Positions 13,308 to 27,790 of a stretch of DNA of 64,000 nucleotides are shown here, piece by piece (the first letter of the stretch is position 1; every line of letters begins with the position of its first letter). The notes under the pieces were generated by a model, which was not told the DNA's origin, made no database searches, and saw nothing but the letters and a program-made list of their open reading frames with translations. The position numbers and the translations under genes are program-made. The stretch comes from Chloroflexota bacterium (lineage in GTDB: Bacteria; Chloroflexota; UBA11872): positions 1-64,000 of the forward strand of contig JAPOXD010000010.1 in NCBI GenBank assembly GCA_026707285.1. The letters run 5' to 3'.

Positions 13308-13325
13308 GGTCCCTCCAAGCTCGGT

Positions 13326-13357
13326 CCGCGCCTGCCGCGCCTGCCGCGCCTGCCGCG
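13326..13357. repeat. Tandem 9-bp repeat (CCGCGCCTG, about 3.5 copies)
   Basis: Three perfect consecutive copies of CCGCGCCTG and a partial fourth lie 19 bases upstream of the minus-strand propeller gene start. The position is in the divergent intergenic region shared with the potassium channel gene. Such short tandem repeats can vary by slippage and alter promoter spacing; nothing else here supports that. Confidence 0.6.
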
Positions 13358-13552
13358 GCTCGCGCGCCTCGGCGGCGCTTGCCGGAAACCGCTCGGGCGG
13401 GCCGATTGCCTGGCGGGATGATGCCTGTTTGCGGGGGTCTGGCGCTATTCCACTCGCCGCGGTCCACCGACGAAGCGTCTCGTCAACGGTGTGACGTTCG
13501 GCCGGCGCCGTTGCAAGATATGTAGAGCCGCTAAACGCGAGATTTCCGCCAG

Positions 13553-14671: not shown

Positions 14672-14715
14672 AACTCATCAAGCGTTGGCGCGTTCGGTGG
14701 AAGCCCCGCTCGCGC

Positions 14716-14730
14716 GTGCGGCAGAATGGT
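14716..14730 (+). promoter_or_regulatory. Repeated upstream box, copy 1 (GTGCGGCAGAATGGT)
   Basis: The same box occurs 49-51 bases before the ATG of each of the four cyclophilin genes: here, and at 15543, 16372 and 17095. CAGAAT inside it could be a -10 element. The constant distance to the start codon argues for a function in transcription or the mRNA leader. Confidence 0.45.
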
Positions 14731-14765
14731 CGGCAGAACGTCATGCGGTCGGGGAGATGATCGTG

Positions 14766-15386
14766 ATGCGACAAGCGATCCTGGTCGGGCTGTCGGCCCT
14801 GTTGCTCATTGTCGTGGCGGGCTGCGGCGAAGCGGAGCCGGAAGGGCCTCCGGTCTACGACGCCTACCCGGAGATGGAGATTGATCCGCTCCGGCCCTAC
14901 AGCGTCACCTTCACCACCAGCGTCGGACGCATCAGCTTCGTCCTGAATCCCGAAGAGGCGCCGCTGGCGGTCAACAGCTTCATTTTCCTCGCCAACAGCG
15001 GCTACTACGACGGTGTGGCGTTTCATCGCATCGTCCCCGGGGTGCTGGCTGAAACCGGGGACGCCACGGGCACGGGCACCGGCAACCCGGGCTACACCTT
15101 CGAGGTCGAGCCGCCGCAGCGGCCTTACCAGCGGGGAGGCATTGCCTTGGCCAATGATGGGACGCCGAATTCAAATGGATCGCGCTTCTTCTTCATCCTC
15201 GGCGACCTTGCGGGAAGTGCCGAAGCGCCGCATGACTACACCGTCTTCGGCCACTACAAGGAAGACCACGCGCCGTCATTGGCCACGCTCGACAAGATCG
15301 AAGCCGCCCAGGAAGAAGTCACGATCTTGTCGCTGAGGGCCACGGAAGGCTGCCTGCCGAGCTGGGGCGGCTACGGCCCGTGCTAG
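14766..15386 (+). CDS. Cyclophilin-type peptidyl-prolyl isomerase lipoprotein, copy 1
   Basis: This 206-residue lipoprotein has a signal ending in the lipobox VAGC followed by a GEAEPEGPPVYDAYP linker, then a cyclophilin domain: FHRIVPGV, GNPGYTFEVEPPQRPY and NSNGSRFFFILGD. It should act outside the cytoplasmic membrane, anchored by lipid, to isomerise Xaa-Pro bonds in exported proteins. Positions that correspond to human CypA Phe60, Gln63 and Gln111 are Val, Glu and Arg here, so the active site is atypical. The ATG at 14766 follows GGGGAG with good spacing and matches the start of the other three copies; an ATG at 14757 is possible. First of a tandem array of four. Confidence 0.85.
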   Translation: MRQAILVGLSALLLIVVAGCGEAEPEGPPVYDAYPEMEIDPLRPYSVTFTTSVGRISFVLNPEEAPLAVNSFIFLANSGYYDGVAFHRIVPGVLAETGDATGTGTGNPGYTFEVEPPQRPYQRGGIALANDGTPNSNGSRFFFILGDLAGSAEAPHDYTVFGHYKEDHAPSLATLDKIEAAQEEVTILSLRATEGCLPSWGGYGPC

Positions 15387-15542
15387 GACCGATGGCGGGC
15401 ACCACCTAGCTCGATCCATGGGCGTCCACGCCGTCTTGTTGGCGCATGGCGCCGATGAGCTAAACCGATGGGTCGGGCGGCGGCGGATGACGGGTCGTCG
15501 ATCCGCATGTCGGTCGCGCTACCTTCACCATACTCCTGTCAG

Positions 15543-15557
15543 GTGCGGCAGAATGGT
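15543..15557 (+). promoter_or_regulatory. Repeated upstream box, copy 2
   Basis: GTGCGGCAGAATGGT, 51 bases before the ATG of the second cyclophilin. A TTCACC (15524-15529) lies 19 bases upstream of its CAGAAT part, as it also does in copy 3, and could be a -35 element. Confidence 0.45.
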
Positions 15558-15593
15558 TGGCGGACCCAGGGGCTGACGGGGGTGGAGCGCATG

Positions 15594-16214
15594 ATGCGGC
15601 GAGTGACACTCCTTGGGCTAGTTGCCCTCATGCTCATCGCGGTGACGGCGTGCGGCGAGGCGGAGCCGGAAGGGCCGCCGGTCTATGAGGCCTACCCACC
15701 GATGGGGATTGATCCGCTCCGGTCCTACAGCGTCGTTTTCACCACCAGCGTCGGACGCCTCACCTTCCAGCTGCTTCCGGAAGAGGTGCCGCTGGCGGTC
15801 AACAGCTTCGTTTTCTTGGCAAGGGAGGGTTACTTCGACGGCGTGACGTTTCATCGCATCGTTCCGGGAGTGCTTGCCGAAACGGGCGACGCGACGGGAA
15901 CGGGCACCGGCAACCCGGGCTACACCTTCGAGGTGGAGCCGCCGCAGCGGCCCTATGAACGCGGTGGCATCGCCCTGGCCAACGACGGGACGCCGAACTC
16001 CAACGGATCGCGCTTCTTCTTCATCCTGGGCGATCTCGCGGGCAGCGCCGAGGCGCCGCATGACTACACGGTCTTCGGCCATCTGAAACCGGATCACGCG
16101 CCGTCGGTGGCAACGCTCGACAAGATCGAGGCCGCCCAGGAAGAGGTCATCATCCGGTCGCTGCAGGTCACCGAGGGATGTCTGCCGAGCCGGGGCAATT
16201 ACGGGGCATGCTAG
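15594..16214 (+). CDS. Cyclophilin-type peptidyl-prolyl isomerase lipoprotein, copy 2
   Basis: A 206-residue paralogue of the gene at 14766. It has a signal MRRVTLLGLVALMLIAVTAC with the lipobox Cys at residue 20, the same acidic-proline linker, and the same cyclophilin motifs (FHRIVPGVLAETGD, NSNGSRFFFILGD). Substitutions at three CypA active-site positions are the same as in copy 1. Tandem ATGs occur at 15591 and 15594; the second matches the other copies and has better spacing from GGAG. The upstream intergenic sequence (about 15440-15590) is also similar to that before copy 3, showing that gene and promoter were duplicated together. Confidence 0.85.
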   Translation: MRRVTLLGLVALMLIAVTACGEAEPEGPPVYEAYPPMGIDPLRSYSVVFTTSVGRLTFQLLPEEVPLAVNSFVFLAREGYFDGVTFHRIVPGVLAETGDATGTGTGNPGYTFEVEPPQRPYERGGIALANDGTPNSNGSRFFFILGDLAGSAEAPHDYTVFGHLKPDHAPSVATLDKIEAAQEEVIIRSLQVTEGCLPSRGNYGAC

Positions 16215-16371
16215 GGCCGACTTCGGCCAACGCGCAGCTCGCTTCATGGGTGCAGGCGCCATCCGAATGGGCGCGTGGCGCCGGCGAGTCGAGCCGATGG
16301 GCCGGGCGGCTGCGGATGACGAGTCCTCGACCCGCATGGCGGATGCGGTACGTTCACCATGCCCCTGTCAG

Positions 16372-16386
16372 GTGCGGCAGAATGGT
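16372..16386 (+). promoter_or_regulatory. Repeated upstream box, copy 3
   Basis: GTGCGGCAGAATGGT, 49 bases before the ATG of the third cyclophilin, with TTCACC at 16353-16358 placed as in copy 2. Confidence 0.45.
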
Positions 16387-16420
16387 AGGCGGACCCAGGG
16401 GCTGACGGGAGAAGCGCAGG

Positions 16421-17041
16421 ATGCGGCGAGTGACACTTCTTGGGCTGGCGGCCCTAATGCTCTTCGTCGTGACGGCGTGCGGCGAGACGGAACCGGAGGG
16501 GCCGCCGGTCTTCGATGCCTACCCATCGATGGAGATCGATCTGCGCCGGTCCTACAGCGTCATCTTCACCACCAGCGTCGGACGCCTCACCTTCCAGCTG
16601 CTGCCGGAAGAGGCGCCGCTGGCGGTCAACAGCTTCATTTTCCTCGCCAACGAGGGCTACTACGACGGCGTCGCGTTTCATCGCGTCGTCCCCGGCGTGC
16701 TCGCCGAGTCGGGCGACGCCACCGGAACGGGCACCGGCGATCCGGGGTACACCTTCGAAGTGGAGCCGCCGCAGCGGCCCTACGAGCGCGGAATGATCGC
16801 GCTGGCCAACGACGGGACGCCGAACTCCAACGGCTCGCGGTTTTTCTTCATCCTGGGCGACCTCGCGGGAAGCGCCGAGGTGCCGCACGTGTACACCGTC
16901 TTCGGCCATCTGAAACCGGATCACGCGCCGTCGGTCGCCACGCTCGACAAGATCGAGGCGGCGCAGGAAGAGGTCATCATCGTGTCGGTGAAGGCGACGG
17001 AGGGCTGCCTGCCGAGCGGTGGTCCTTTCCAGTGCTCATGA
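16421..17041 (+). CDS. Cyclophilin-type peptidyl-prolyl isomerase lipoprotein, copy 3
   Basis: Third 206-residue member of the array, with the signal MRRVTLLGLAALMLFVVTAC, lipid-attachment Cys at residue 20, and a cyclophilin fold (FHRVVPGVLAESGD, then NSNGSRFFFILGD). It is closest by eye to copy 2 in both gene and upstream region, including the GACCCAGGGGCTGACGG leader. Expected location and role are as for the other copies: a membrane-anchored extracytoplasmic folding factor or a degenerate cyclophilin used for binding. The ATG at 16421 follows GGAGAAG. Confidence 0.85.
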   Translation: MRRVTLLGLAALMLFVVTACGETEPEGPPVFDAYPSMEIDLRRSYSVIFTTSVGRLTFQLLPEEAPLAVNSFIFLANEGYYDGVAFHRVVPGVLAESGDATGTGTGDPGYTFEVEPPQRPYERGMIALANDGTPNSNGSRFFFILGDLAGSAEVPHVYTVFGHLKPDHAPSVATLDKIEAAQEEVIIVSVKATEGCLPSGGPFQCS

Positions 17042-17094
17042 CGGATCTTGGACTCGCACGGGAGTCGCGCTCCGTCTAGCCAGGTTCAGGGTAG

Positions 17095-17107
17095 GTGCGG
17101 CAGAATG
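17095..17107 (+). promoter_or_regulatory. Repeated upstream box, copy 4
   Basis: GTGCGGCAGAATG, 50 bases before the ATG of the fourth cyclophilin. Sequence outside the box has diverged from the other copies more than the box has. Confidence 0.45.
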
Positions 17108-17144
17108 TCGGGTGGACCCTGGGCCTGACGGGGAGACGGGTGCC

Positions 17145-17765
17145 ATGCGGCGAGTGACAATCCTTGGGCTAGCTGCCCTAGTGCTCATCGTCGTGGCCGC
17201 GTGCGGTGAGTCCGAGCCCGAAGGGCCTCCGGTCTACGACGCCTATCCGACGATGGAGGTTGAAGATCAGCGGGGCTATAGCGTCACCTTCACCACCAGC
17301 GTCGGGCGCATCCGATTCGTGATGTTGCCGCAGGAAGCACTGCTGGCGGTCAACAGCTTCATCTTCCTGATCAACGAGGGTTACTACGACGGCCTCGCGT
17401 TTCATCGGGTGGTCCCCGGACTGTTCGCCGAATCGGGCGACGCGACGGGCACGGGCACCGGCAACGCGGGCTACACCTTTGAAATCGAGCCACCGCAGCG
17501 GCCGTACGCGCGCGGACTGATTGCCCTGGCCAACGACGGGACGCCGAACTCCAACGGATCGCGGTTCTTCTTCATCCTCGGCGACCTGGCCGGAAGCGCC
17601 GAGGCGCCGCACGAGTACACGATCTTCGGCCATGTCAGGGAAAACCATGCGGTGTCTTGGGCGACGTTGGACAAAATCGAGGCCGCGGAGGAAGAGGTCA
17701 CCATCCTGTCGACGGTCGCGACCGAAGGTTGCCTGCCAGCCTGGATGGGCTTCGGCCGGTGTTGA
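17145..17765 (+). CDS. Cyclophilin-type peptidyl-prolyl isomerase lipoprotein, copy 4
   Basis: Fourth and most divergent member, also 206 residues. Signal MRRVTILGLAALVLIVVAAC with lipobox Cys at residue 20; cyclophilin motifs FHRVVPGLFAESGD and NSNGSRFFFILGD. The CypA Phe60 position is Leu and Gln63 is Glu. GGGGAGACGGG precedes the ATG at 17145. A longer frame running back to 17019 overlaps copy 3 and is not preferred. It is the last gene before the integrated element, whose left boundary is about 100 bases downstream. Confidence 0.85.
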   Translation: MRRVTILGLAALVLIVVAACGESEPEGPPVYDAYPTMEVEDQRGYSVTFTTSVGRIRFVMLPQEALLAVNSFIFLINEGYYDGLAFHRVVPGLFAESGDATGTGTGNAGYTFEIEPPQRPYARGLIALANDGTPNSNGSRFFFILGDLAGSAEAPHEYTIFGHVRENHAVSWATLDKIEAAEEEVTILSTVATEGCLPAWMGFGRC

Positions 17766-17868
17766 TGTCGAGGTGCGCCATCCTCGGAGTCGACCGCTAG
17801 GCGCCCAGGCCGCTCGCTCGGGCAGGTCGTCACGCCAGTTGGACGCCGGCTGCCGCCAGCAATGGCGG

Positions 17869-17886
17869 GTGGAGATGAGGGGACTC
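17869..17886. repeat. Left attachment repeat (att core)
   Basis: GTGGAGATGAGGGGACTC is identical to 27578-27595, the 3' end of tRNA-Ala. After one mismatch a further AACCC also matches. This is the distal copy created by site-specific integration into the tRNA gene; the rest of the tRNA is absent here. Confidence 0.85.
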
Positions 17887-17913
17887 CAACCCTCATCATG
17901 CAACCCAAACCTG

Positions 17914-19110
17914 TTAAATGGCATCCGCGCGACCGCTTCTGCTCATATTTTGTGCATAGTTTCCGGCCAAAGCGTCCGCCAAACGGTCGGCGGCGGCGCG
18001 TTTCGTGGTGCTGTGCGGGTGCACGTAGCGGTCGGCCGTCATCGCGATCGAGCTATGCCCAAGCATCTCGGAGACCGTCACCAGGTCCACGCCAGCGGCG
18101 ATAGCGAGCGTGGCCGCCGTGTCTCGCAAGTCGTGGATTCGTAGTTTCGGCAGACCGGCCACGCGCAGCGCCTCGGCAAACCAGCGGGTGAGCGTGTTCG
18201 GCCCGATGGGTACGCCGTGCGTCCGGGCGCGGCCGTCCAGTCGCGTGAACACAAAGCCGCGGTCCTCGTAGGCCGATCCCAATTCCGCCCGCAATGCGTC
18301 CTGCTCGTCTTTGTGACGCTTCAGCACCACCATGGCTGGCTCGCCGGCGTGGACCAGGCGGTCCGTCCCGGTTTTGGTCGGCCCGAGGCCAAAGCCGCCG
18401 CCCGGCTGCCGGGTGAGTTGCTCGTGCACGTGGATCGTCCGGTGAGTGAAGTCCACCGCATCCCAGCGCAGCCCCAGCGCCTCGCCGCGCCGTAGGCCCG
18501 TATGGAGCAGCAGGTGGACGATGGGATAGAGCTGCCGAAGCCGCGCGTTGCCCATGCGGCACACGTCTAGGAGGGCTTGCGCCTCGTGGACCGCCAGCAC
18601 GCGGTACTCGCGGCGCCGCCGTGGCGGCAGTGCGATACCTACGACCGGATTCGTGGTGAGCAGGCGACGCCGGACGGCGAGCTTGCCCAGGGCGCCCAGT
18701 ACAAGCCTCAGGGTCTCCGCCGTGGCGACTTTGCCCTGGTCCACGACCAGGTCGACGCAATGTTGAACCTCCCCGTGCGTCAGCCGGTCGAGCCGGATAT
18801 GCCCCAGCGTCGGCACGACGTAGGTCTGAACAACCGTGTCGTACCGCCGCCAGGTGCCGAAGGTTCGCGTCCGCTTGATCTGCGCCAACCACTGTGCGGC
18901 GAAGGTGGCGACGGTGAGGCGGCCGTGGTCGACGTTTAGACCGACCTCCAGGTCGCCGATAAACTTGCGCCACTCACGCTGTAGCTCGCGCTTGGTGCGC
19001 GCGGTCACGGTTCGAGCTTTATATCGCCCTCCGCCGACGTGGACCCTGAGCTGATACCGATGATTGCCGCGCTCGGTGACGGAGCCGGGCAGGGAGCCGG
19101 CGCGCGTCAC
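17914..19110 (-). CDS. int: Tyrosine recombinase (phage-type integrase)
   Basis: The 398-residue protein has an N-terminal Arm-DNA-binding region (beta strands around RYQLRVHVGGG), a SAM-like core-binding domain (about 66-160) and a catalytic domain. Catalytic residues are visible: Arg in HTGLRRGEALGLRW (about residue 210), Lys in GPTKTGTDR, His-x-x-Arg in HDLRDTAATL, and His and Tyr in LGHSSIAMTADRYVH. It would recombine the tRNA-Ala attachment sites. It starts at GTG, overlapping the stop of the excisionase-like gene (GTGA). Its last codons overlap a 16-bp repeat also found near the other end of the element. It lies beside the left att repeat. Confidence 0.95.
   Translation of the reverse strand: MTRAGSLPGSVTERGNHRYQLRVHVGGGRYKARTVTARTKRELQREWRKFIGDLEVGLNVDHGRLTVATFAAQWLAQIKRTRTFGTWRRYDTVVQTYVVPTLGHIRLDRLTHGEVQHCVDLVVDQGKVATAETLRLVLGALGKLAVRRRLLTTNPVVGIALPPRRRREYRVLAVHEAQALLDVCRMGNARLRQLYPIVHLLLHTGLRRGEALGLRWDAVDFTHRTIHVHEQLTRQPGGGFGLGPTKTGTDRLVHAGEPAMVVLKRHKDEQDALRAELGSAYEDRGFVFTRLDGRARTHGVPIGPNTLTRWFAEALRVAGLPKLRIHDLRDTAATLAIAAGVDLVTVSEMLGHSSIAMTADRYVHPHSTTKRAAADRLADALAGNYAQNMSRSGRADAI
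17937..17952. repeat. Putative integrase arm-type site, left
   Basis: TTCTGCTCATATTTTG occurs here, 51 bases inside the left att core, and again in the same orientation at 27467-27482 near the right att core. It is AT-rich compared with its surroundings. Matching short repeats inside both ends of an integrated element are expected of arm-binding sites for tyrosine integrases. Confidence 0.55.
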
Positions 19111-19385
19111 GTCGGCAGCCGCACGATCTCGGCGTCGGCCTCGGGCGCGTCGGGCATGAGCGCGCCGGCTTCGAGCGCCTGCATGAACCGACGGCGCGGA
19201 ATGAGCATTCTCATGCCGGCCCTCATGCAGGGAATCGTCCCCCGGTGAATGGCCGTACGCACGAATCCCGGGCCGACACGCAGGACGGCGGCCACTTCCT
19301 CGACGGTCCAGAATTCTTGCGCGTGGAGACTCGCCAGTTCGTCGGCGGTCAGGAGTCGGCGGGGAACCTTAGGCATCGTCGCCAT
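19107..19385 (-). CDS. Excisionase/MerR-like helix-turn-helix protein
   Basis: The 92-residue protein contains EFWTVEEVAAVLRVGPGFVRTAIHRGTIPCMRAGMRMLIPRRRF, the usual winged-helix pattern of HTH_17/excisionase-family proteins (about residues 23-67). Such proteins bend DNA at att sites and set the direction of recombination. It directly precedes the integrase gene with a 4-base GTGA overlap and is itself overlapped 17 bases by the upstream gene, so the three are one operon. The ATG at 19385 follows GAGG; an ATG at 19376 is possible. Confidence 0.75.
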   Translation of the reverse strand: MATMPKVPRRLLTADELASLHAQEFWTVEEVAAVLRVGPGFVRTAIHRGTIPCMRAGMRMLIPRRRFMQALEAGALMPDAPEADAEIVRLPT

Positions 19386-19758
19386 CGTCGGCAACCTCAA
19401 GGCCAGAGGCGAAGTGAATACGCACGTGCGGCTCCCACGGTGGCCGCCAATCGGGCGCGTTGCTCCAGGTGGCGATCCGCGAGTACCCATCGGCCGGCGG
19501 CTCCGGGTCGATCCAAATCCAGTAGGTCTCGCCGTCACGCTTCCACCAACCGTTGGGTACTTGGTGATAGCCACTGGCCGCTGGGTCGAATTCTGGGTCC
19601 GGCGGGAATACCACGCGCTGTGTGCGCCAATCCGCCGCCGGCGACGTGGCCTGTATGCGGATGTACTCCTGAAGCGTCAATCCCCATTCCGCGGCAAATT
19701 TCTTCGCTACTCGAAGGTCGCCGGGGTGGAAACGAGTATTGATTTGCTGCCCCTTCAT
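19369..19758 (-). CDS. Hypothetical protein with N-terminal ribbon-helix-helix-like segment
   Basis: The 129-residue protein starts MKGQQINTRFHPGDLRVAKKFAAEWGLTLQEYIR, which has the strand-helix-helix layout of ribbon-helix-helix repressors. The remainder is rich in Trp and Pro (WKRDGETYWIWIDPEPP, then WSNAPDWRPPWEPHVR) and is unfamiliar. It is first in the leftward int operon, overlapping the excisionase-like gene. A repressor of its own operon, perhaps binding the TCAGGATACCA repeats just upstream, is a reasonable guess but is only inference. Confidence 0.6.
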   Translation of the reverse strand: MKGQQINTRFHPGDLRVAKKFAAEWGLTLQEYIRIQATSPAADWRTQRVVFPPDPEFDPAASGYHQVPNGWWKRDGETYWIWIDPEPPADGYSRIATWSNAPDWRPPWEPHVRIHFASGLEVADDGDDA

Positions 19759-19809
19759 GCCAAGCCTTTCTGTTGGCCGGGGAGTAGTGGACCGTCACTT
19801 CCCTGCCAA

Positions 19810-19841
19810 TCAGGATACCACGCTGGCCATTCAGGATACCA
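19810..19841. promoter_or_regulatory. Pair of direct repeats, candidate operator
   Basis: TCAGGATACCA occurs at 19810-19820 and 19831-19841, 21 bases apart, which is two helical turns. The pair lies between the leftward int operon and the rightward gene at 19940, the normal place for a switch operator. Confidence 0.5.
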
Positions 19842-19939
19842 GATGGTGTCAGGAGCGTAGCCCGCACCGCCGGAGGGTAGTGTCCGGTTTTGACAACTTC
19901 CGGCCGGGGGACGCCATGGGGCTACCATAGAGGAGCCGG

Positions 19940-20275
19940 TTGGCAGAAAAAGAAGTGGCCGTGCCTGAATGCGTCGTGGCCTTCCTCAAAGAGTGGGCAC
20001 CGACCCTGTGGTACATGGCGGGGTTGCTGGGGTTCTGGGTTGGCGCGGGCGTACTGACCTTTCGTTCTGCCGTGAGGGCCTGGCACTCCAGGGGTTTCCA
20101 GCGGGTGGCGGGGCAAAACGCAAAGGGCGTGCAGAGCTTTGCCGAGTATGAGCCATCCGCCGATCAAGCCGTGTGGGTGTACTCCAGCCTGTGGGTGCTG
20201 GTGGTGGCTGCCATCCTTGGGCCTGCGTCCATCGTGTTCGCGTTGATCTACTGTCGTTACCTCAGCGACACCTAA
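19940..20275 (+). CDS. Small membrane protein of the element, unknown function
   Basis: This 111-residue protein has two strong hydrophobic segments, about residues 23-45 (LWYMAGLLGFWVGAGVLTF) and 80-105 (WVYSSLWVLVVAAILGPAS), with a charged loop between. It is the only rightward gene of the element and points toward the end of the packaging operon, with which it is convergent. The TTG at 19940 is preceded by AGGAG (19931-19935); GTG at 19958 or 19964 is possible. No family is recognised. Its isolated position resembles accessory genes of prophages and satellites (exclusion, immunity or lysis-related), but nothing in the sequence decides. Confidence 0.55.
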   Translation: MAEKEVAVPECVVAFLKEWAPTLWYMAGLLGFWVGAGVLTFRSAVRAWHSRGFQRVAGQNAKGVQSFAEYEPSADQAVWVYSSLWVLVVAAILGPASIVFALIYCRYLSDT

Positions 20276-20399
20276 CGGGTGTCGTCGCCGTCGATCTCGA
20301 ACGCGACCGTGTGCTTGGCGCAGGTGTCCAGTTTCAGGCGGCGGAGCGCCGCTCCTTGTGGCAGCCGTGGCACTTGCGCAAGCGCCGACTACGTGGCAT
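20272..20399 (-). pseudogene. Possible frameshifted Cys/His-rich small gene at the end of the packaging operon
   Basis: An ATG at 20399 overlaps the end of the connector gene and encodes MPRSRRLRKCHGCHKERRSAA before a stop at 20334. In another frame the sequence continues as LKLDTCAKHTVAFEIDGDD to a stop at 20272. Together they would give a C-x2-C...C-x2-H zinc-binding layout followed by a short strand, as if one frame was broken. The length is small and no homologue is recognised, so this may be chance. Confidence 0.3.
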
Positions 20400-20892
20400 C
20401 GCCCACCGCGTAGGGCGACGCCGGCGCGAGCGCCAGCCATTGCGCCACGTAGGGCCGCACGATGGCGGCTAGGTCCAGGCCGAGCGTGCGCTCCAGCGGG
20501 TCCGGCAAGTGCCGGAAGTATTCGGCCTCTTTCGGCCCGATCTGCTCGCGTTTCACGTCCATGGCATCGCCCGTCAGCTCGCGCGGATGCCGCACCAGGT
20601 CAGCCGCGATCAGGATCGCCGCCGCCTCGATGCCCGCCGGTACGCCGGTGGTGCCGATGCCCGCGCGCGGCCATGCGGTCGCTTGGCTGGCTTGCGCCTT
20701 GGTCCCGCGCCACGGCAGCCGGTCCAACGCGCGCGTCGCCGTCACCAGGGCGCGGCGCTTGGCGTCCGTTTCGGCGGCGTTCCATGTGGTCCGCTGCGGC
20801 CCCGCCTCGGCCAGCATGTAGGCGTTGGCTTCGGCGACGCTGGCATAGGTCGGTATCGACGTGCTGCCCAGCGTCACGCTCGACAGGCTCAC
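20389..20892 (-). CDS. Head-tail connector-like protein (DnaT-like/gp6-like)
   Basis: The 167-residue protein contains YASVAEANAYMLAEAG, then NAAETDAKRRALVTATRALDRLPWRGTKA and WPRAGI, the pattern of small phage proteins annotated as DnaT-like or head-tail connector proteins that follow portal or capsid genes. The helical DPLERTLGLDLAAIVRPYV tail fits connector folds. It starts with GTG overlapping the stop of the portal gene. In a capsid-forming satellite this protein would make the interface to a tail supplied by a helper phage. The family link is by pattern and gene position. Confidence 0.6.
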   Translation of the reverse strand: MSLSSVTLGSTSIPTYASVAEANAYMLAEAGPQRTTWNAAETDAKRRALVTATRALDRLPWRGTKAQASQATAWPRAGIGTTGVPAGIEAAAILIAADLVRHPRELTGDAMDVKREQIGPKEAEYFRHLPDPLERTLGLDLAAIVRPYVAQWLALAPASPYAVGDAT

Positions 20893-21911
20893 GCGGCATC
20901 CTCCAGGCCCATCAACCGCAGCGCCTGGTCGGCGTCCACGTCGCCGCGCATGAGCGCCGCCGCCCCGCGTGCGAGGCCCTGGAGGTCGCGGTCGAATGCC
21001 GGCAGCGTGAGCCGTACGCTCGCGTCCAACTGTTCGGACAATTCCGCCGCCATCAGCGCGAGCCGCGGCGCTACCCAAAGCTGGCGGAACGCGCGCACGG
21101 CGTCCACGTCGCCACGCGAGTACTCGCGCGAGAGGCCGCACGCCGCCAGCATGGTCGCCTCTACGTCGGTGCGCAGCTGCACGGCGTCCTCGTCCGGTTC
21201 CGCCCGCGTTGCCGCCATCTCGTAGTAGTCCGACGGCCGGCGCTGCGACGCGCGCGCGTCCACGTTGGGCGCGCCCGGCACGCCGCCCGTGCTGACGATG
21301 ATCGGCGAGCCGCGCGAGTGCGCGTTCTTGGTCGCACTGCGCAGACTGTCGGCGACGGCCTGGAGCGCGGAGTCGGGGTCGCCTTGGGCGGCCAATTGCT
21401 GATAGCTCAGATTCCAGTCGGCCGGCAGCGCGCGAAAACTCACGATGCGCGACTCCGCCAACAGGCTCAATTGGAGCGCCAGCGCCGTCGCAGCGTCCGC
21501 CGTGCCGTGCCACGGTCCCAGGCCGCCGTCGGCCCAGTCGTGCACGACTAAGGCGTCGCGCGCTATCGGCGCGTCTCGGTCTGCGCCCGTGCGCCGGATG
21601 CGCCACGGGTCGCGCTTGGTCACGGTCACGGGATCCAGCGTGGCGGATCCATCCACGATGCGGATCTCATGGGTGGCGCTGCCGTCGCGGATCAGCCGCT
21701 CGCCGACGTTGGCGAGATAGCGCGCGCTCACGGCCGGCGGCGCGCCGGCCACGTCGGCGCTCGCCAGCACGGCGGCCCACGCGCTAGACGCGGTGCGCCG
21801 CGCTTGCGTCGTCTGTGGCCCAACGCTGCCAGCGGCGGCGGCGGCCAGCGCTTCGGCCAGTGTGTCGGTATAGCTGGCGCGGTGCTCGGCTCGCCAGAAT
21901 CGGAGCCTCAC
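20889..21911 (-). CDS. Phage portal protein
   Basis: The 340-residue protein has the order of elements expected of an HK97-type portal, though shorter than the usual 380-450 residues: VRLRFWRAEHRASYTD at the start, a helical stem-like region ATALALQLSLLAESRIVSFRALPADW in the middle, a loop PIIVSTGGVPGAPN, and a long C-terminal helix segment (YSRGDVDAVRAFRQLWVAPRLALMAAELSEQL). Portals form the dodecameric DNA channel at one capsid vertex. The GTG at 21911 overlaps the protease stop codon. The assignment rests on these patterns and on its neighbours, and a remote-homology search would be needed to make it firm. Confidence 0.65.
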   Translation of the reverse strand: MRLRFWRAEHRASYTDTLAEALAAAAAGSVGPQTTQARRTASSAWAAVLASADVAGAPPAVSARYLANVGERLIRDGSATHEIRIVDGSATLDPVTVTKRDPWRIRRTGADRDAPIARDALVVHDWADGGLGPWHGTADAATALALQLSLLAESRIVSFRALPADWNLSYQQLAAQGDPDSALQAVADSLRSATKNAHSRGSPIIVSTGGVPGAPNVDARASQRRPSDYYEMAATRAEPDEDAVQLRTDVEATMLAACGLSREYSRGDVDAVRAFRQLWVAPRLALMAAELSEQLDASVRLTLPAFDRDLQGLARGAAALMRGDVDADQALRLMGLEDAA

Positions 21912-22849
21912 AGCCACAGCCGCCGACTCTCGCCAGCCGCGACCGGCTGACGCGTGGCGTCCTCTGGCAGCAGCCAGCGCTCGCGCGTCGCCAGCGTGAT
22001 CGCCGTGAGTATCGGGTCGCGGACGACGCCGACGGTGATCGCGTCGCCGGCGCTTAGGCCCGTGCCGGCCTCCTGGATGTCTTCGACCACGCCGGTAAAC
22101 GTCGGGTCGGGATAGACACGGTTGCCAGCGGCCAGCCACGCGCGGATGTCCTCCGCGCCGCTCGTCTCCGGCAGCTCGGGCACGTCGAACGTAAAGCCGC
22201 CGTTGCGCTCCTTGGCGAGCCGTAGCGTGCCGCCACTGTGCGACGCCAGCGGCGAGCGGTCGAAGTAGAGCGCTACGTCGCGCGTGCCGGGCGCGAAGTC
22301 CTCCGGCAGATGCACCAATCCTTGCGGGCGCGTTTTGCGACGTCCACGGCCGCCGGCGCGCTCGATGCGCTCGCGGCCCATGTCCCAGCGTCCCGACAGT
22401 CCGCCGCCGCGTCCCAGCGTCGCGGCCTGCCGCACTTCGACGCTTGCGCCGGCGTAGGCCGGCTGCCGGCCCTCAAGTAGCGCAATGCCGAGTAGCGCGG
22501 CGCTGCCGATCACGCGCTCGCCGCCCATCCGCCGCTCCTTGAGCGCCTCGAATTCCACGCTTGCGCCCGTCGCCGTCACGGGCCGCGATAGACGCGCCTC
22601 GAAGCGCAGCGCGTCCGGCCCGTCCACCATGCGCAGCGTGCCGTCGTTCAGCGCCGCCAGTGTGTCGCCGGCGTCGTGGTTGCGATTCGCCACCAGGCCG
22701 GGCGCGTACAGCACCGCACCTGGTTCCCAGCGTTCAATCACGCGCTCGCCGCTCGGCAGTAGCACGTCGGCGCGCTCGCCGTAGGGCATGGCGACGCCTC
22801 GAGCGGTCCGCCCGTCCAGCTCCAGGTCGCGCGCGCGCCGTTCGATCAC
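21908..22849 (-). CDS. HK97-family prohead protease with a second protease-like domain
   Basis: Residues 1-150 follow the prohead protease plan: ARGVAMPYGERADV, ERWEPGAV, then VANRNHDAGDTLA with the catalytic-type NHD, LRFEARLSRPVTATGASVEFEALKERR with the Ser region, and ALLGIALLEGRQPAYAGASVEVRQ. Residues about 168-300 repeat the plan in weaker form: LPEDFAPG, DRSPLASHSGGTLRLAKE, GGFTFDVPELP. The family is normally one domain of 150-200 residues, so 313 residues with two copies is unusual. It would cleave the capsid N-terminal region during maturation. It starts with GTG 4 bases after the capsid stop, and it overlaps the portal start. Confidence 0.75.
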   Translation of the reverse strand: MIERRARDLELDGRTARGVAMPYGERADVLLPSGERVIERWEPGAVLYAPGLVANRNHDAGDTLAALNDGTLRMVDGPDALRFEARLSRPVTATGASVEFEALKERRMGGERVIGSAALLGIALLEGRQPAYAGASVEVRQAATLGRGGGLSGRWDMGRERIERAGGRGRRKTRPQGLVHLPEDFAPGTRDVALYFDRSPLASHSGGTLRLAKERNGGFTFDVPELPETSGAEDIRAWLAAGNRVYPDPTFTGVVEDIQEAGTGLSAGDAITVGVVRDPILTAITLATRERWLLPEDATRQPVAAGESRRLWL

Positions 22850-22853
22850 GGCG

Positions 22854-24089
22854 CTAGGTGACGTACTTGACGCGCTTGAAGCTGGCCGGGCGCGGTAGCG
22901 CGAAGTTCCACAAGTACTCCAGCGTCAACGCGACTTCGCCACTCTTGGCGGCCGTGTACGGGTCGCGAATCAGCCGGCCCGAATTCCATACGGGCGCGAC
23001 GCCGGCGTTGGCGATGCCGCGCCCCAGGCCGATGAACGCGCCGAAGTCGCCGTTGGCGGTCGCCGTTTCGATCTCGCCTCGCGTGCGCCACGTGACGCCG
23101 TTCTCCCGCAGGAATGCGGCTAGTGTTTGGTTTGAAGTGTCCGGCGCCGCGATGGTCGCCAACCACAACGTGTTGGAGCCAACGGTCGCGACCAAGCGCA
23201 CGTCGCCAAGGCTGCCGGCGTGGATGCCATCGACGAAGCCGGCCAGCACTTCCAGCACCTTGTCGGGCTTGATCTTGTTAGCTTGCGTAAGCGTGCTTTC
23301 GGCAATGGCCGCCGTGGTGAGGCCGGTGATGTCGGCGCTGTTTTCGTTCGCGCCCGCGTCGCCGACGAAAATCGTCCGGTCGATCTTCTCCACCATCGCG
23401 GCTCGTAGGTCAGCCCGGATGGCGTCGGCCAGGCCCGGCAGCCGCGCGTCGTCTTCGACGCTGTAGACGGCTCGCACGCTATTGCGCGTCGGCTTGACCT
23501 CCGTGACGGTCGCCGTGATGGTCGCGTCGACCGCGGCCTCGGTGCGCCCGCGCTGCGCCGGCGCCGCGTTGCTGCCGATGACCGGATAGGCGCGCACACC
23601 GGCCGGCACGCTCGGCATGGTGATGCCCAACGCGCCCGCCGCCGCGTCGGCGAACAGGCGATCTAACCAGGTCCCTTGCGTGGTGCCGGCGTCGCCGTCC
23701 ACGGCGGCCCGGTGCTCCGCGCCATCGTCCAGAAGGTCCAGGGGGAAGCGATCCGCCGGCACGTCTAGCGCCTGGTTGTACTCGGCAGCCGCGCCGCCGG
23801 TCACGCCATGACCGGCCAGTGCGCCGCGGATGTAGTCGCCGAAGTCCACGCGCGAGCGCAACTCCGTCAGCTGGTGATCCTCGCCGCCGCCGCCATCGCC
23901 GTCACCATCGCCGCCGTCGCCTTCGACGGTGATCGCCGCGCGTAGCTCGACTTCGCCGGCCTGGTAGTCGGCCGTCAGGGTCGCGAGTGCGGAGCGCTCC
24001 TCATCGGTGCGCTCCTCTTGCGCCAGGAGCGCGTTGATTCGCTCGCGGCGCTCCGACTGCTTGACTTCGATTTTCTGCCGGGTGGTCAT
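22854..24089 (-). CDS. HK97-fold major capsid protein
   Basis: The 411-residue protein begins with a charged helical delta-like domain (residues 1-55: EVKQSERRERINALLAQEER), a Gly/Asp linker (about 56-70), and a capsid body with typical HK97 features: VRAYPVIGSNAAPAQRGRTEA, ATVTEVKPTRNSVRAVYSVEDDARLPGL and AIRADLRAAMVEKIDRTIFVGDAG (the spine helix), and a C-terminal AKSGEVALTLEYLWNFALPRPASFKRVKYV. It assembles the procapsid. The ATG at 24089 follows AGAGGA and is preferred to longer frames that enter the HNH gene. It is followed at once by the protease gene, an order reversed from most phages. Confidence 0.88.
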   Translation of the reverse strand: MTTRQKIEVKQSERRERINALLAQEERTDEERSALATLTADYQAGEVELRAAITVEGDGGDGDGDGGGGEDHQLTELRSRVDFGDYIRGALAGHGVTGGAAAEYNQALDVPADRFPLDLLDDGAEHRAAVDGDAGTTQGTWLDRLFADAAAGALGITMPSVPAGVRAYPVIGSNAAPAQRGRTEAAVDATITATVTEVKPTRNSVRAVYSVEDDARLPGLADAIRADLRAAMVEKIDRTIFVGDAGANENSADITGLTTAAIAESTLTQANKIKPDKVLEVLAGFVDGIHAGSLGDVRLVATVGSNTLWLATIAAPDTSNQTLAAFLRENGVTWRTRGEIETATANGDFGAFIGLGRGIANAGVAPVWNSGRLIRDPYTAAKSGEVALTLEYLWNFALPRPASFKRVKYVT

Positions 24090-24106
24090 GGGTCCTCTTT
24101 CTGGCG

Positions 24107-24430
24107 CTAGTAAAAGCCGCCGATGATGGCCGGTTCCGGTTCCGCTGGGATCGCGTCGGCGACGTGCCGCCGCCACTCGCGGCGCGACGTGCTCACGCGG
24201 CCATGGCGCAAGCCGTGGCAGTGGGCGCACAACGCGATCAACTGGCGCACGTGGGGGAACGGGTCGCCGCCGTCGCCGATGGCGTCCACGTGGTGGACTT
24301 CAAGCCGCCGCGCCGGCTCGCCGCACTGTTCGCAGGCACCCCGCGCCCGCCGCCGCACACGACCGCTGAGCCGACGCCAAAGGGACGAAGCGTAGACCTT
24401 GCTGACCTTGCGACGGGCGCGGGTGTGCAT
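24107..24430 (-). CDS. HNH endonuclease
   Basis: This 107-residue protein has a zinc-stabilised HNH core: CEQCG (about residue 33), EVHHVDAIGDGGDP (HH...D) and LCAHCHGLRHG. HNH proteins next to the large terminase are required for cos-type packaging in many HK97-like phages and in capsid-forming satellites, where they stimulate terminase cleavage. It lies between the terminase (76 bases upstream) and the capsid gene (17 bases downstream). The gap before it contains a pair of TGTAAAC repeats that may regulate the downstream genes. Confidence 0.9.
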   Translation of the reverse strand: MHTRARRKVSKVYASSLWRRLSGRVRRRARGACEQCGEPARRLEVHHVDAIGDGGDPFPHVRQLIALCAHCHGLRHGRVSTSRREWRRHVADAIPAEPEPAIIGGFY

Positions 24431-24437
24431 ACAGATA

Positions 24438-24466
24438 GTTTACACAATGCACACAAAACGTTTACA
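24438..24466 (-). promoter_or_regulatory. Pair of TGTAAAC repeats before the HNH-capsid genes
   Basis: On the minus strand TGTAAAC occurs at 24466-24460 and 24444-24438, 22 bases apart, in an AT-rich island within a GC-rich operon. The spacing of about two helical turns suits an operator, and TAAACT (24442-24437) could be a -10 box. It suggests separate control of the HNH, capsid, protease, portal and connector genes. Confidence 0.4.
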
Positions 24467-24506
24467 TCCGCTGCAAACCACGACAAAGCGCCGATCCCCG
24501 CGGCGT

Positions 24507-26018
24507 CTACCAGGGCGTCACCATCACGGCCGGCGCCGGCATTGGCGCGGCGGCGGCGCGCGATCCCTCGGCGATGGCCTGCACGGCGGCCGTAAGCGCG
24601 TCGATGCGGCCATGCGCTCGCGCCCGGTCCAACTTCGGATTTCCCGCCGCGTCGTACAGCACGGCCGACTCGGCGATGGCGGCCTCTAGCGCCAGGCTGC
24701 GGCCCAGCCGCACGCGCCGCTCGATGATCGCCGTTTGGGCGGCTCGCACGTCTTCGGAGCCGTCGCGCCAGCCCAAGCCGCGAAACTCGCGCGGCCAGTG
24801 GATGCCGGCGGCGTCTAGCGCGTCGTGCGCTTCGGCCTCGCGGTAGCGGTCGCCCACCACGGCGGCGACGGGCTGGCCGGCCAGGTCGTCCACCAAGTCC
24901 GCCAGGAAGTGCCGCACGGGCGTCACTCGGCCGGCATAGGTCCGCAGCTCGCCGCGCCGCGCCAGGTCCACGTAGAGGCCGCCGCAGCCATCGGCGCGCC
25001 CGCGCTCCCATAGGTCCGGTTCCGTGCCGCACGCGACCCACGCCTCAAGGCGGCCCGACGCCGGCCAGTAGGCGGCCGCGGCCGTGAGGCTCGCACTGCC
25101 GCCCAAGTCGAGGCCCACGACGCACAGGCCCTCGCGCGCCGGCGGCGTCGGCATGACGCACGCCTGCCAGTCGGCCAGCGCGACGAACGGGTCGGAGACT
25201 ACTTCGCTTGCTCCGAGATTCAGCCGCAGCGCGCGAAACCGTGCGGCGGCGGAGGCATCCACCTTGGCGCGCTTCGCCTCGGTTCGGTAGGCGGCCAGCA
25301 ACGGCGCGAACGCGGGCGCGCGTAGGCTCGGGTTGGCTTTCTCCCACGTGCGCCGGCGGAACGGCTCGCCAGTGCCGACGTGCGCTTGCGCGAAGTCCGC
25401 GCCGCCGTCCAACAGGCGCCCGAACCAGTGCCGATCATCCGCCGGTCGCGTGCCGATGGCCAGCAGCCGCGCGTCGGCCTGTTTGCCGAGCGCCGTTTCG
25501 AGCGCCGCGAACATGGCATCGGCTTGCCCTCGCGGCCATTGCGCCGGCTCGTCGGCCAGAATCAGAGCCGGTGCCGGCCCGTGTAGGCGGTTGGGATCGC
25601 TGCCGACGCAGCGCAGCCGCTGGCCGGTGGCGCGGTGCGTCACCCGCGCGGCGTTCGCCGAATCCTCGACCCGCCAGCCCCTAGGCTCGGATTCAAGCGC
25701 GGGTCGGAGAAAGGCAAGCGCGTGCTCGAAGGCGATTTTTCCTTGGGCAAAACTGCTCGCGATAATCAGCGTTTCGCCGCGCGGTCGCGCCAGCGGTCCA
25801 TTGGGCATCAAGGCGGCAAGCGCGAGCGCCGCCGTCGTAGTCGTCTTCGCGCCGCCGCGCGCCATCGTGAGCGCCGCCGTTTGCACGCCGGGCCGCAACG
25901 CGCCGTGAATCCATCGGCGCTGCCATGGCATCAGCACCAGGCGCTCACCCGCTGCGGCGCCTTGGGTAATGCGCAGCCGTTCGAGGCCCGCGATTACGTC
26001 GCGAGCGGTGCTGCCCAC
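24507..26018 (-). CDS. terL: Phage terminase large subunit
   Basis: The 503-residue protein has the ATPase domain motifs of HK97-like TerL: LMPWQRRWIHGAL (adenine motif), MARGGAKTTTTAALAL (Walker A variant) near residues 52-67, and PALILADEPAQW (Walker B with catalytic Glu) near 148-160. The C-terminal nuclease domain shows VVGLDLGGSASLTAAAAYWP with the first metal-binding Asp and AHGRIDALTAAVQAI with a late Asp. It translocates DNA into the capsid through the portal. It starts with GTG inside the end of the SLOG-like gene (25-base overlap). No separate small subunit is recognised. Confidence 0.9.
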   Translation of the reverse strand: MGSTARDVIAGLERLRITQGAAAGERLVLMPWQRRWIHGALRPGVQTAALTMARGGAKTTTTAALALAALMPNGPLARPRGETLIIASSFAQGKIAFEHALAFLRPALESEPRGWRVEDSANAARVTHRATGQRLRCVGSDPNRLHGPAPALILADEPAQWPRGQADAMFAALETALGKQADARLLAIGTRPADDRHWFGRLLDGGADFAQAHVGTGEPFRRRTWEKANPSLRAPAFAPLLAAYRTEAKRAKVDASAAARFRALRLNLGASEVVSDPFVALADWQACVMPTPPAREGLCVVGLDLGGSASLTAAAAYWPASGRLEAWVACGTEPDLWERGRADGCGGLYVDLARRGELRTYAGRVTPVRHFLADLVDDLAGQPVAAVVGDRYREAEAHDALDAAGIHWPREFRGLGWRDGSEDVRAAQTAIIERRVRLGRSLALEAAIAESAVLYDAAGNPKLDRARAHGRIDALTAAVQAIAEGSRAAAAPMPAPAVMVTPW

Positions 26019-26416
26019 GCGCCTAGCTCGCGCTCAACGTCGCCGTCGCCGTCGCGCTGCATGGTGACGTAGTTATGCGGCACTTCCAGCGCTAGGCATT
26101 GCTCAAGTTCGTTTGCGGTGCCGTCGCTGACTCCATCGTGAATCAGCAGCACCCGATCGGCGTCTTTGACGATGGCGATGGCGCGATGATGGTATGCGCC
26201 GGTCCGTCGCTTGCGATGGTCGGCAAAGTGCAACGTGAGAGGCAGTGCTAAATCGCGGGCAACGTCGCGCGCAACTTGTGAGACACCTTCAGGCTCACCC
26301 GCCGTCACGATGCCGCGTACGGCATGGCGCGAGATTTCGGCCAGCAACGCGCGGCGCACGGCCGGCCCGCTCAGGCTGCGGCTGCCGAAAACCGCTAGGC
26401 GCTCGCGAATCTGCAT
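25994..26416 (-). CDS. SLOG/DUF2493-like Rossmann protein
   Basis: The 140-residue protein runs RLAVFGSRSLSGPAVRRALLAEI, then GIVTAGEPEGVSQVARDVARDLALPLTLHFAD, then GAYHHRAIAIVKDADRVLLIHDGVSDGTANELEQC. This is the Rossmann-like pattern of the SLOG superfamily (DprA, YspA and LOG-related), which bind nucleotides or nucleotide-derived ligands. In this family GSR, TAGE and SDGTANE form the ligand pocket. It is the third gene of the packaging operon and overlaps terminase translation. Its role in a mobile element is unknown; ligand sensing in induction or defence is speculation. Confidence 0.65.
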   Translation of the reverse strand: MQIRERLAVFGSRSLSGPAVRRALLAEISRHAVRGIVTAGEPEGVSQVARDVARDLALPLTLHFADHRKRRTGAYHHRAIAIVKDADRVLLIHDGVSDGTANELEQCLALEVPHNYVTMQRDGDGDVERELGAWAAPLAT

Positions 26417-26540
26417 GGCTCAAGGCTGGCAGCGGAGCGCCGCGTGTGTGGCGTCCGAAGTCCCGAAACGCTTCGGACGGCCCCAGGGTGGACGCGGGGG
26501 GACCCCAGCATCGCGCACCACGCCTTGCCACCACATGCGC

Positions 26541-26819
26541 TCAGCCACGGTTGCGCCGGGCTGCAGCCGCGAGGCACTTCTGGCAGCGGCTCCGCCCGTC
26601 ACTCGCCTGGCGACCGCACTGGATGCAGCGGCCCGCCGCTCGCCATCGGGCTCGACGGGCGCGCATGTAGTCGCGTTTGCGGATGACCTGGTGCGGATTG
26701 CGGCGCAGGTAGTCGCGCACGGCGGCCGTGTTCGCCGCCGTGCACGCCTCGCAGCGGCAGCGATGGTTGCCGTATCCGCCGCGCGTGCCGCTGGCCGGGC
26801 CGGCGATGCACTCAATCAT
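26541..26819 (-). CDS. Small zinc-finger-like protein of the element
   Basis: The 92-residue basic protein contains GYGNHRCRCEACTAANTAAVRDYLRR at the N-terminus and GRCIQCGRQASDGRSRCQKC at the C-terminus, giving paired CxC-x2-C and CxxC...CxxC sets likely to bind zinc. Similar short Cys-rich proteins occur in actinobacterial and other phages without assigned function. Its ATG overlaps the stop of the HTH gene (ATGA). A gap of 124 bases with no supported gene separates it from the SLOG-like gene. DNA or RNA binding is likely from the Arg content. Confidence 0.6.
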   Translation of the reverse strand: MIECIAGPASGTRGGYGNHRCRCEACTAANTAAVRDYLRRNPHQVIRKRDYMRARRARWRAAGRCIQCGRQASDGRSRCQKCLAAAARRNRG

Positions 26820-27445
26820 CGGCGGTTCGCGCCGTGGCTAGCAGATGGGAGGGCCGTCGGCGGCTCGCCCGTGAGCTTCGCTTTCAGGTCGGCTATCCCC
26901 TCGCCGAACAGCTTCTGCGCTATCCCCTCGGCCTCGGCGAACAACATCTGCGGCCCTCCGGTCCGGTTCCGGTCCAGCGTGTCAACGCGTCTTTGCGATT
27001 CTTCGGAATCCGGAATCCGGGCCGACGCGCGCGTACGTGCGGGATTGTCCACACTTCGCGCCCATCCCTTGATGCGCTCCCAGTGCGCGGCGGCCTTGCC
27101 GCGCGTACGGGCAACGGCACGCGAGCGCCGTACGCGATCGACCACGCCGACGAAGTGAACGACCACGTAGACGACGCGGCGACCGCGCCGGCGCGTCTTC
27201 AGTAGGCCAGCGTCCACCAGTCGCCGCAACGCGCGTTCCACCGTGGTCTTGCCCAACTGGCACGCCGTGGCGATCGCGCGAATCGTCGGCCAGCACCGCG
27301 CGTCTTCGCCGATCCACCCGCCCAAGGCGCGCAGCACCTTGGCCTCATTCTCTCGCGCCCGAGTCGTGCGCCCGGGGAGCGCTGGCGGCCCAAGTCTCTC
27401 CCAGTCGGCGAAGTAGAGCCGCGCCGCGGAGTTGAAGGCGCTCAT
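26816..27445 (-). CDS. Helix-turn-helix protein of the element (regulator, replication or small-terminase candidate)
   Basis: The 209-residue protein has a winged-helix core at about residues 30-95: ARENEAKVLRALGGWIGEDARCWPTIRAIATACQLGKTTVERALRRLVDAGLLKTRRRGRRVVYVV. This resembles the HTH_36 domains of phage replication and regulatory proteins. The rest is basic and ends in a short helical segment (EAEGIAQKLFGEGIADLKAKL). It is the first gene of the long leftward operon and the closest gene to the right att site. A DNA-binding role is well supported; which process it serves is not. It could also provide the missing small-terminase function. Confidence 0.6.
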   Translation of the reverse strand: MSAFNSAARLYFADWERLGPPALPGRTTRARENEAKVLRALGGWIGEDARCWPTIRAIATACQLGKTTVERALRRLVDAGLLKTRRRGRRVVYVVVHFVGVVDRVRRSRAVARTRGKAAAHWERIKGWARSVDNPARTRASARIPDSEESQRRVDTLDRNRTGGPQMLFAEAEGIAQKLFGEGIADLKAKLTGEPPTALPSASHGANRR

Positions 27446-27456
27446 TCGCCGCCGGC

Positions 27457-27482
27457 CTGCTCATATTTCTGCTCATATTTTG
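27457..27482. repeat. Putative integrase arm-type sites, right (two copies)
   Basis: CTGCTCATATTT occurs twice in tandem at 27457-27468 and 27469-27480. The second belongs to TTCTGCTCATATTTTG (27467-27482), identical to 17937-17952 at the other end. The sites lie about 95-120 bases inside the right att core and just upstream of the first gene of the packaging operon, so they might also affect its promoter. Confidence 0.55.
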
Positions 27483-27577
27483 AGCGAAAACATGGCAAAC
27501 GGAGACAAACGGACGGCAGCCCAAAGGCGCTGCTAACAGAAGTAGCAGGCGTCATGGGCGACGCAGGGAAACCCCTC

Positions 27578-27595
27578 GTGGAGATGAGGGGACTC
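27578..27595. repeat. Right attachment repeat (att core in tRNA-Ala)
   Basis: GTGGAGATGAGGGGACTC, identical to 17869-17886. It covers the discriminator base, the 3' acceptor strand and part of the T arm of tRNA-Ala, so integration restores an intact tRNA. Confidence 0.85.
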
Positions 27596-27651
27596 GAACC
27601 CCTAACCCCTGCCTTGCAAAGGCAGTGCTCTACCAATTGAGCTACATCCCC
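27579..27651 (-). tRNA. tRNA-Ala (TGC anticodon)
   Basis: The minus strand folds as a 73-base tRNA: acceptor GGGGATG with CATCTCC and discriminator A, D arm GCTC...GAGC, anticodon stem CTGCC with GGCAG around loop TTTGCAA (anticodon TGC), and T arm GGGGTTCGAGTCCCC. CCA is not encoded; CGA follows. Its 3' end is the integration site of the element at 17869-27595. Confidence 0.95.
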
Positions 27652-27713: not shown

Positions 27714-27790
27714 GGGCTCTTAGCTCAGTCGGTTAGAGCGCGCCTCTGATAAGGGCGAGGTCCGTGGTTCGAATCCACGAGGGCCCACCA
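27714..27790 (+). tRNA. tRNA-Ile (GAT anticodon)
   Basis: The 77-base sequence folds as acceptor GGGCTCT with AGGGCCC, D arm GCTC...GAGC, anticodon stem GCCT-side around CTGATAA (anticodon GAT), and T arm CGTGGTTCGAATCCACG, with discriminator A and an encoded CCA (27788-27790). It is divergent from tRNA-Ala, 62 bases apart. These two tRNAs usually sit together inside rRNA spacers, but here they are free-standing. Confidence 0.95.

Follow-up and report, generated by a model that had tools for sequence, protein, structure and literature searches.

A probable capsid-encoding phage satellite of a Chloroflexota bacterium belongs to a distinct, multi-phylum family of about 10 kb

The prophage-like elements phiRv1 and phiRv2 of Mycobacterium tuberculosis, about 10 kb long and equipped with an integrase, an excisionase, a capsid protein and a protease, are usually called remnants. 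Capsid-forming phage-inducible chromosomal islands (cf-PICIs; PMC10690885, PMC11389934) are integrative elements, widespread in bacteria, that encode their own capsid, protease, portal, connectors, terminase large subunit (TerL) and HNH endonuclease and carry no tail genes. The Streptomyces phage satellites MulchRoom and MiniFlayer (OQ784832 and OQ357865) also encode their own TerL, portal, capsid and adaptor and have no primase; MulchRoom has kept its integrase and bears tails of helper length, and MiniFlayer has no integrase and bears short fibres (PMC10690885). Here we describe an element located in a 64,000-nucleotide stretch of a Chloroflexota genome (hereafter the window), and propose that it is probably a phage satellite of about 9.7 kb that can integrate and excise, encodes its own capsid and belongs to a distinct family.

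Like a cf-PICI, the element has an integrase and an attachment (att) site, its own capsid, protease, portal and connector, a TerL accompanied by an HNH endonuclease, and no tail genes. It differs in that Pfam and PHROGs recognise no terminase small subunit (TerS), that capsid and protease precede the portal, and that it measures only about 10 kb. The family is set apart from cf-PICIs by their published descriptions and not by their sequences. The element probably works most like a cf-PICI; as its dependence on a helper and any sequence kinship with that group are presumptive, we do not file it as one. Kinship with MulchRoom and MiniFlayer was considered and rejected, since hidden Markov models of the family gave no match at E<=10 to any of their core genes; at 14.8 and 17.4 kb they are also longer, encode TerS and a scaffold, and follow the order TerL-portal-scaffold-capsid. 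Charybdis elements (PMC12324425), at 4.6 kb and devoid of hallmark genes, are a different thing.

The element is bracketed by an 18-bp perfect direct repeat, GTGGAGATGAGGGGACTC, whose positions predict an excised circle of 9,709 bp; no repeat longer than 18 bp joins both flanks. All its genes except one lie on the minus strand and point away from the tRNA-Ala gene that harbors one repeat copy (Table 1). Starting from the tRNA, they encode a winged-helix protein, a cysteine-rich protein, a SLOG-like protein, TerL, HNH endonuclease, capsid, protease, portal and adaptor, followed by a 129-aa protein, an excisionase-like protein and the integrase. Neighboring genes overlap by 4 bp at four junctions (winged-helix/cysteine-rich, protease/portal, portal/adaptor and excisionase/integrase), and the other neighbors in the head module are closely spaced. 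The named open reading frames (ORFs) are free of stops, and the same genes are intact in a second species, G001. The sole plus-strand gene proposed, a 111-aa ORF, falls in a variable stretch that cannot be aligned to G001.

Comparison of the window genome with five other species of its genus (G001-G005) points to a mobile element. G001 carries the same element at the same tRNA. The site is cleanly empty in G002 and G005, where the same genes flank one intact attachment sequence, and G003 and G004 are also without the element. Between the window and G001, the median synonymous divergence (dS) was 0.37 for 39 flanking genes and 0.18 for TerL, HNH, capsid, protease, portal, adaptor and integrase (Mann-Whitney p=6e-6). 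This difference indicates that the element moves, and that it likely came to occupy the tRNA-Ala site after the two species had separated. Two genes deviate, the SLOG-like gene with a dS of 0.03 and the winged-helix gene with 0.44, which indicates mosaic exchange and, for the SLOG-like gene, suggests a recent exchange with the G001 lineage. Most packaging and integration genes are under purifying selection, with a ratio of nonsynonymous to synonymous divergence (dN/dS) of 0.16-0.25 in those for TerL, capsid, protease, portal and integrase.

The head and packaging genes differ in how readily they are recognized. TerL is clear, with Walker A (RGGAKT), Walker B (ADEP) and the nuclease acidic residues all present by eye. 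The window capsid on its own is marginal (PF05065, 5e-4); its family profile matches PHROG major head proteins and solved capsids, and the best Foldseek matches of an AlphaFold2 model built from a 25-sequence alignment (pLDDT 76), both in the PDB and among viral structures, are HK97-fold shells. An earlier model from three sequences (pLDDT 35) was discarded. The window portal gave no convincing profile match when queried singly, and its identity is secured by its family homologues, 20 of 22 of which match PF04860 Phage_portal (best 1.9e-15), and by the match of the family profile to solved PDB portals (1e-8). The protease is a weaker assignment, for which position, faint S78 similarity and co-conservation speak. 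No primase was found in the element, and beyond the replication-initiator-like winged-helix protein, Pfam and PHROGs revealed no tail, lysis or replication module such as a complete temperate phage has.

A sequence-only reading of the window had described an element of about 9.7 kb at tRNA-Ala, likely in Chloroflexota, whose packaging genes were intact, translationally coupled and selected and not a random prophage remnant. This description holds: the repeat lies at the tRNA 3' end, the claimed set (integrase, excisionase-like protein, TerL, HNH, HK97 capsid, protease, portal and connector) is intact, with the protease placed by weak profile and position, the overlaps are real, the five core genes show the dN/dS expected of selected genes, and a record of the same genus (L131) is labeled Chloroflexi bacterium. 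Frameshifts in relatives, named there as a possible refutation, are not seen in G001. Its statement that there are no replication genes was too strong, because the product of 26816-27445 resembles replication-initiation winged-helix proteins (phrog_270 3e-9). Its 'zinc-finger' and 'SLOG' labels are weak points, both matches (E=0.03 and E=0.07) being below Pfam cut-offs.

The wider family is difficult to see. Single-sequence searches of IMG/VR and INPHARED with the window TerL, portal and capsid returned nothing or only generic HK97-type terminases. Two IMG/VR loci, L129 and L130, came to light with a capsid alignment that included a distant copy found in a different genus, and it was only because these loci were added to the TerL alignment used as query that the family became visible, with 19 loci among 84,980 genomes and 16 in IMG/VR; a general TerL alignment was dropped after it returned 80 generic terminases. 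On profile iteration, 24 of these loci, the window among them, proved to have TerL, capsid, protease and portal together, and a portal search added 16 with all four genes, for a total of 40. The 19 genome loci lie in metagenome-assembled genomes (MAGs) of eight named phyla, so that the family has hosts in at least eight; the host labels are Chloroflexi, Alphaproteobacteria/Rhodospirillales, Gammaproteobacteria, Truepera, Gemmatimonadetes/Palauibacter, Latescibacterota, Binatia, Nitrospinota and Actinomycetes. The sequence-only reading had proposed a search of related genomes and metagenomes for the same gene set and length, and the family is larger than it supposed.

In a maximum-likelihood tree, a long branch (2.7) with support of 100/100 separates the family TerLs from generic terminases. 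Host phyla are interleaved within the family: a Gemmatimonadota copy is nested in an alphaproteobacterial group, and copies from Nitrospinota, Latescibacterota and Gemmatimonadota cluster. Mis-binning could account for single odd host assignments, yet contigs as long as 100-490 kb hold several of the copies. No relatives of the family capsid or portal were found among 50,697 phage records, and the best TerL identity to HK97-type phages is about 27-30%. We regard the family as previously unrecognised and define it by its TerL clade, a size near 10 kb and the module TerL-(HNH)-capsid-protease-adaptor/portal. Sponges of one study (PMC8163846) correspond to the name Palauibacter rhopaloidicola and to the bin prefixes RHO, COS and APA, and a sponge origin is likely for the window genome and the jk18 bins. 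A literature search, beyond whose reach lay preprints and many journals, found no prior description in sponges.

Several other loci met in these searches deserve mention. Locus L034 (G349:C20, about 8100-18300) was excluded from the family because no capsid gene was seen; it is a compact island from the same phylum with TerS, TerL, HNH, a DNA-modification-like gene, a primase and an integrase, and may represent another satellite-like type. A TerL carrier in G084 proved to be an ordinary tailed prophage. L146 and L147 share the same tRNA-Glu and the same host flank genes, and in L147 TerL is inverted relative to capsid-protease-portal. In a genome of the same family but a different genus, L013 (G016:C67:1-12000) and L040 comprise two neighboring sets of genes. 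One has HNH, a protease, a TerL fragment (54%) and a homologue of the capsid (30%). The other is a tailed prophage that looks complete, encoding TerS, TerL, portal, capsid and tail tube as well as a tape-measure-like ORF of 1,096 aa. This is possibly a satellite adjoining a helper, although masked N runs obscure how intact it is.

Length is the most uniform property of the family. Eleven att-bounded members including the window, delimited by exact repeats of tRNA 3' ends, average 9,980 bp (standard deviation (SD) 403) and span 9.5-10.7 kb across seven kinds of tRNA: Ala (9,709 bp, the window, and 9,471 bp), Arg (10,148 and 9,863 bp), Ser (10,594 bp), SeC (10,658 bp), Glu (10,217, 9,494 and 10,114 bp, the last with a 15-bp repeat), Lys (9,740 bp) and Asn (9,776 bp). 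IMG/VR contributes seven circular genomes, with terminal repeats 55-99 bp long, that measure 9,018-10,095 bp (mean 9,496, SD 328). One further circular relative, L184 (IMGVR_UViG_2617270816_000001), is a size outlier at 13,577 bp; it encodes a serine resolvase and has an ORF of 971 aa. Accessory genes vary, including a topoisomerase-like gene in L137, primase-helicases in L133 and L183, a helicase/primase in L140 and ParA in L171. Near-constant length despite such turnover is expected from a fixed head volume, which is its simplest explanation. According to a published scaling, T=3 heads would hold 11.8 kbp (95% interval 8.1-17.1) and measure about 43 nm; for tailed phages such heads are predicted but not yet seen in structures (PMC7762592). 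The small tailed-phage genomes considered there share this length range but belong to complete phages or to contigs of undefined nature and do not make up a family whose integration sites are known, and the smallest capsid-encoding genome among them is one 7.4-kbp contig.

For tail genes, we screened 93 accessory proteins of relatives and the window against PHROGs. Among the matches listed, in which weak single matches could be missed, there was no tail module in the window or in any family member; those listed were integrases, excisionases, HNH endonucleases, adaptors, neck/head-closure and replication proteins. Tail-like features were isolated: L142 has a tape-measure-like ORF of 539 aa, L135 a fibre/endolysin-like ORF of 162 aa, and the adaptor extension of L152 weakly matches a tail-fibre family. 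These essentially empty screens uphold the earlier claim of no recognisable tail genes, and homologues with a tail module lost here, its other possible refutation, were not encountered. They also support its view of a capsid-forming, tail-less, satellite-like element, in which the theft of helper tails is deduced from missing genes and analogues.

We propose the following mode of life. The integrase would insert the element at the tRNA 3' end, a step for which the sequence evidence is direct, and the element would excise as a circle. On activation, capsid, protease and portal would assemble into a small head of HK97 type with room for about 10 kb, into which TerL, with HNH, would pack the element's own DNA; a self-made head and self-packaging are proposed because the gene set is conserved, selected and size-constrained. 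The adaptor would then present a docking face for a tail. Tails and lysis would most likely come from a helper phage, as suggested by the missing tail module and by the analogues, cf-PICIs and MulchRoom (PMC10690885).

A rather unlikely alternative is that these are minimal autonomous viruses, tail-less or podovirus-like, in which the portal-adaptor complex, sometimes fused to a fibre, is the whole adsorption device. In L129, L156, L170 and L172 the adaptor of about 100 aa runs on into about 650-790 aa with fibre-like repeats and a coiled coil, and such relatives may carry their own adsorption device; L129 and L156 are circular, integrase-less genomes, and L170 and L172 are contigs. The L152 match, the short fibres of the integrase-less satellite MiniFlayer (PMC10690885), which some circular relatives may resemble, and the possible persistence of circular forms as plasmids (ParA in L171, primase-helicase in L183) point the same way. 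However, profile scans found no family match for the extensions, which are called fibre-like by composition only, and the association of fusion with integrase absence was not significant (p=0.09). Moreover, integrase-bearing members including the window have a plain adaptor of 81-167 aa, and the sole candidate lysis gene recognised is the ambiguous ORF of L135. The bolder version of this idea strikes us as doubtful: that this phylum-crossing family includes the smallest self-sufficient HK97-capsid viruses, 9-10 kb circular double-stranded DNA genomes with T=3-like heads and a fibre-fused adaptor, needing neither tail nor helper, with integrated members as lysogenic or helper-dependent sister forms.

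It is less plausible that the element is a mobile island whose capsid serves some purpose other than transduction, for example helper interference, and which moves by another route. A NikA-like trace in the 129-aa protein hints at this, but it is below cut-off, and a complete packaging set under selection and the narrow lengths argue for packaging. We reject a degraded prophage with head genes kept by chance as highly improbable. The lack of tail, lysis and most replication genes and the presence of SLOG-like and cysteine-rich proteins of no known use would suit decay; genes intact in two species, mostly under purifying selection, the recurrence of the same reduced set and length at different tRNAs in many phyla, and the circular 9-10 kb genomes would not. 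Gene-transfer agents (GTAs) are fixed loci that carry tails. The portal profile does match the RcGTA portal (3e-5), and GTA is one of many HK97 shells that the capsid matches, but with an integrase, an excisionase, att repeats, empty sites and movement between species, a GTA-like or domesticated capsid locus packaging host DNA is scarcely credible and was also rejected. Several observations nonetheless weigh against the satellite interpretation that we favor. No TerS was recognised by Pfam or PHROGs in the window or among relatives' accessory proteins, dN/dS is 0.71 for HNH and 0.58 for the adaptor, with few substitutions, and ORFs of no assigned family could hide divergent tail proteins. The window adaptor has no detectable similarity to those of other members, so head completion may differ; in one reading, it may have been exchanged to fit another tail. 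Finally, a search of two carrier genomes for PF04860 portal and PF10145 tape-measure genes revealed no further gene and no resident helper prophage, so that the helper would be an infecting phage.

Table 1. Features of the element in the window (1-based positions), and adaptor fusions in four relatives (positions within each locus)
Feature	Position	Strand	Evidence
Attachment repeat, tRNA-distal, 18 bp	17869..17886	.	Single copy in empty sites of G002/G005
Tyrosine integrase, 398 aa	17914..19110	-	PF00589 2.3e-26; phrog_1 1.5e-71; dN/dS 0.16
Excisionase-like HTH_17 protein	19107..19376	-	HTH_17 6.5e-9; 4-bp overlap with integrase; start inferred (open frame 19107-19574)
129-aa protein, fast evolving	19369..19758	-	Faint NikA-like PF21983 E=0.04, below cut-off; 35% identity to G001
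111-aa putative membrane protein	19940..20275	+	Hydrophobic segments by eye; no Pfam match
Head-tail adaptor (Ad1 / gp6-like), 167 aa	20389..20892	-	phrog_477 4e-22; PF20557; 4-bp overlap with portal
Portal, 340 aa	20889..21911	-	Family profile; 4-bp overlap with protease
Putative prohead protease, S78-like, 313 aa	21908..22849	-	PF04586 E=0.064; placed between capsid and portal family-wide
Major capsid protein, HK97 fold, N-terminal delta-like helical region, 411 aa	22854..24089	-	PF05065; model
HNH endonuclease, 107 aa	24107..24430	-	PF01844 2e-6; phrog_144 4e-13
TerL, 503 aa	24507..26018	-	phrog_9 7e-53; alignment
SLOG-like protein, 140 aa	25994..26416	-	PF12694 E=0.07; overlaps TerL start
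Cysteine-rich (zinc-ribbon-like) protein, 92 aa	26541..26819	-	E=0.03, below cut-off
Winged-helix protein, phage replication-initiation-like, 209 aa	26816..27445	-	HTH_36 1e-8; phrog_270 3e-9
Attachment repeat within tRNA-Ala 3' end	27578..27595	.	Repeat comparison
tRNA-Ala(TGC), integration target	27578..27651	-	ARAGORN
Adaptor-fibre-like fusion, L129	3263-5563		No recognised integrase
Adaptor-fibre-like fusion, L156	3484-5778		No recognised integrase
Adaptor-fibre-like fusion, L170	5092-7764		No recognised integrase
Adaptor-fibre-like fusion, L172	3685-5934		No recognised integrase

The surroundings of the element have features of their own. Three or four cyclophilin-type peptidyl-prolyl isomerase lipoprotein paralogues, arranged in tandem (window 14445-17765), directly adjoin it, and the sister species has several copies of such lipoproteins too. 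The neighboring tRNA-Ile (window 27714-27790) is a second integration hotspot (L030, L031), occupied by a serine-recombinase island in G003 and a type I restriction-modification island in G004. All six genomes of the genus also encode a conserved Phage_capsid (PF05065) protein of about 404 aa (G000:C15:40890-41168 (L186), and G001-G005), a candidate domesticated capsid or encapsulin-like protein.

If our interpretation is true, satellites that build their own heads extend beyond the well-studied hosts, as one family of very uniform length (about 9.8 kb) that is spread over at least eight phyla, with several MAGs bearing sponge-derived bin names, and that is invisible to isolate phage databases at the level of capsid and portal. 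The lengths of its 18 complete members fall within the range predicted for T=3 heads, and thus make the open question of T=3 tailed-phage capsids testable. Moreover, the fibre-fused relatives raise the question of what a virus of the tailed-phage type minimally needs.

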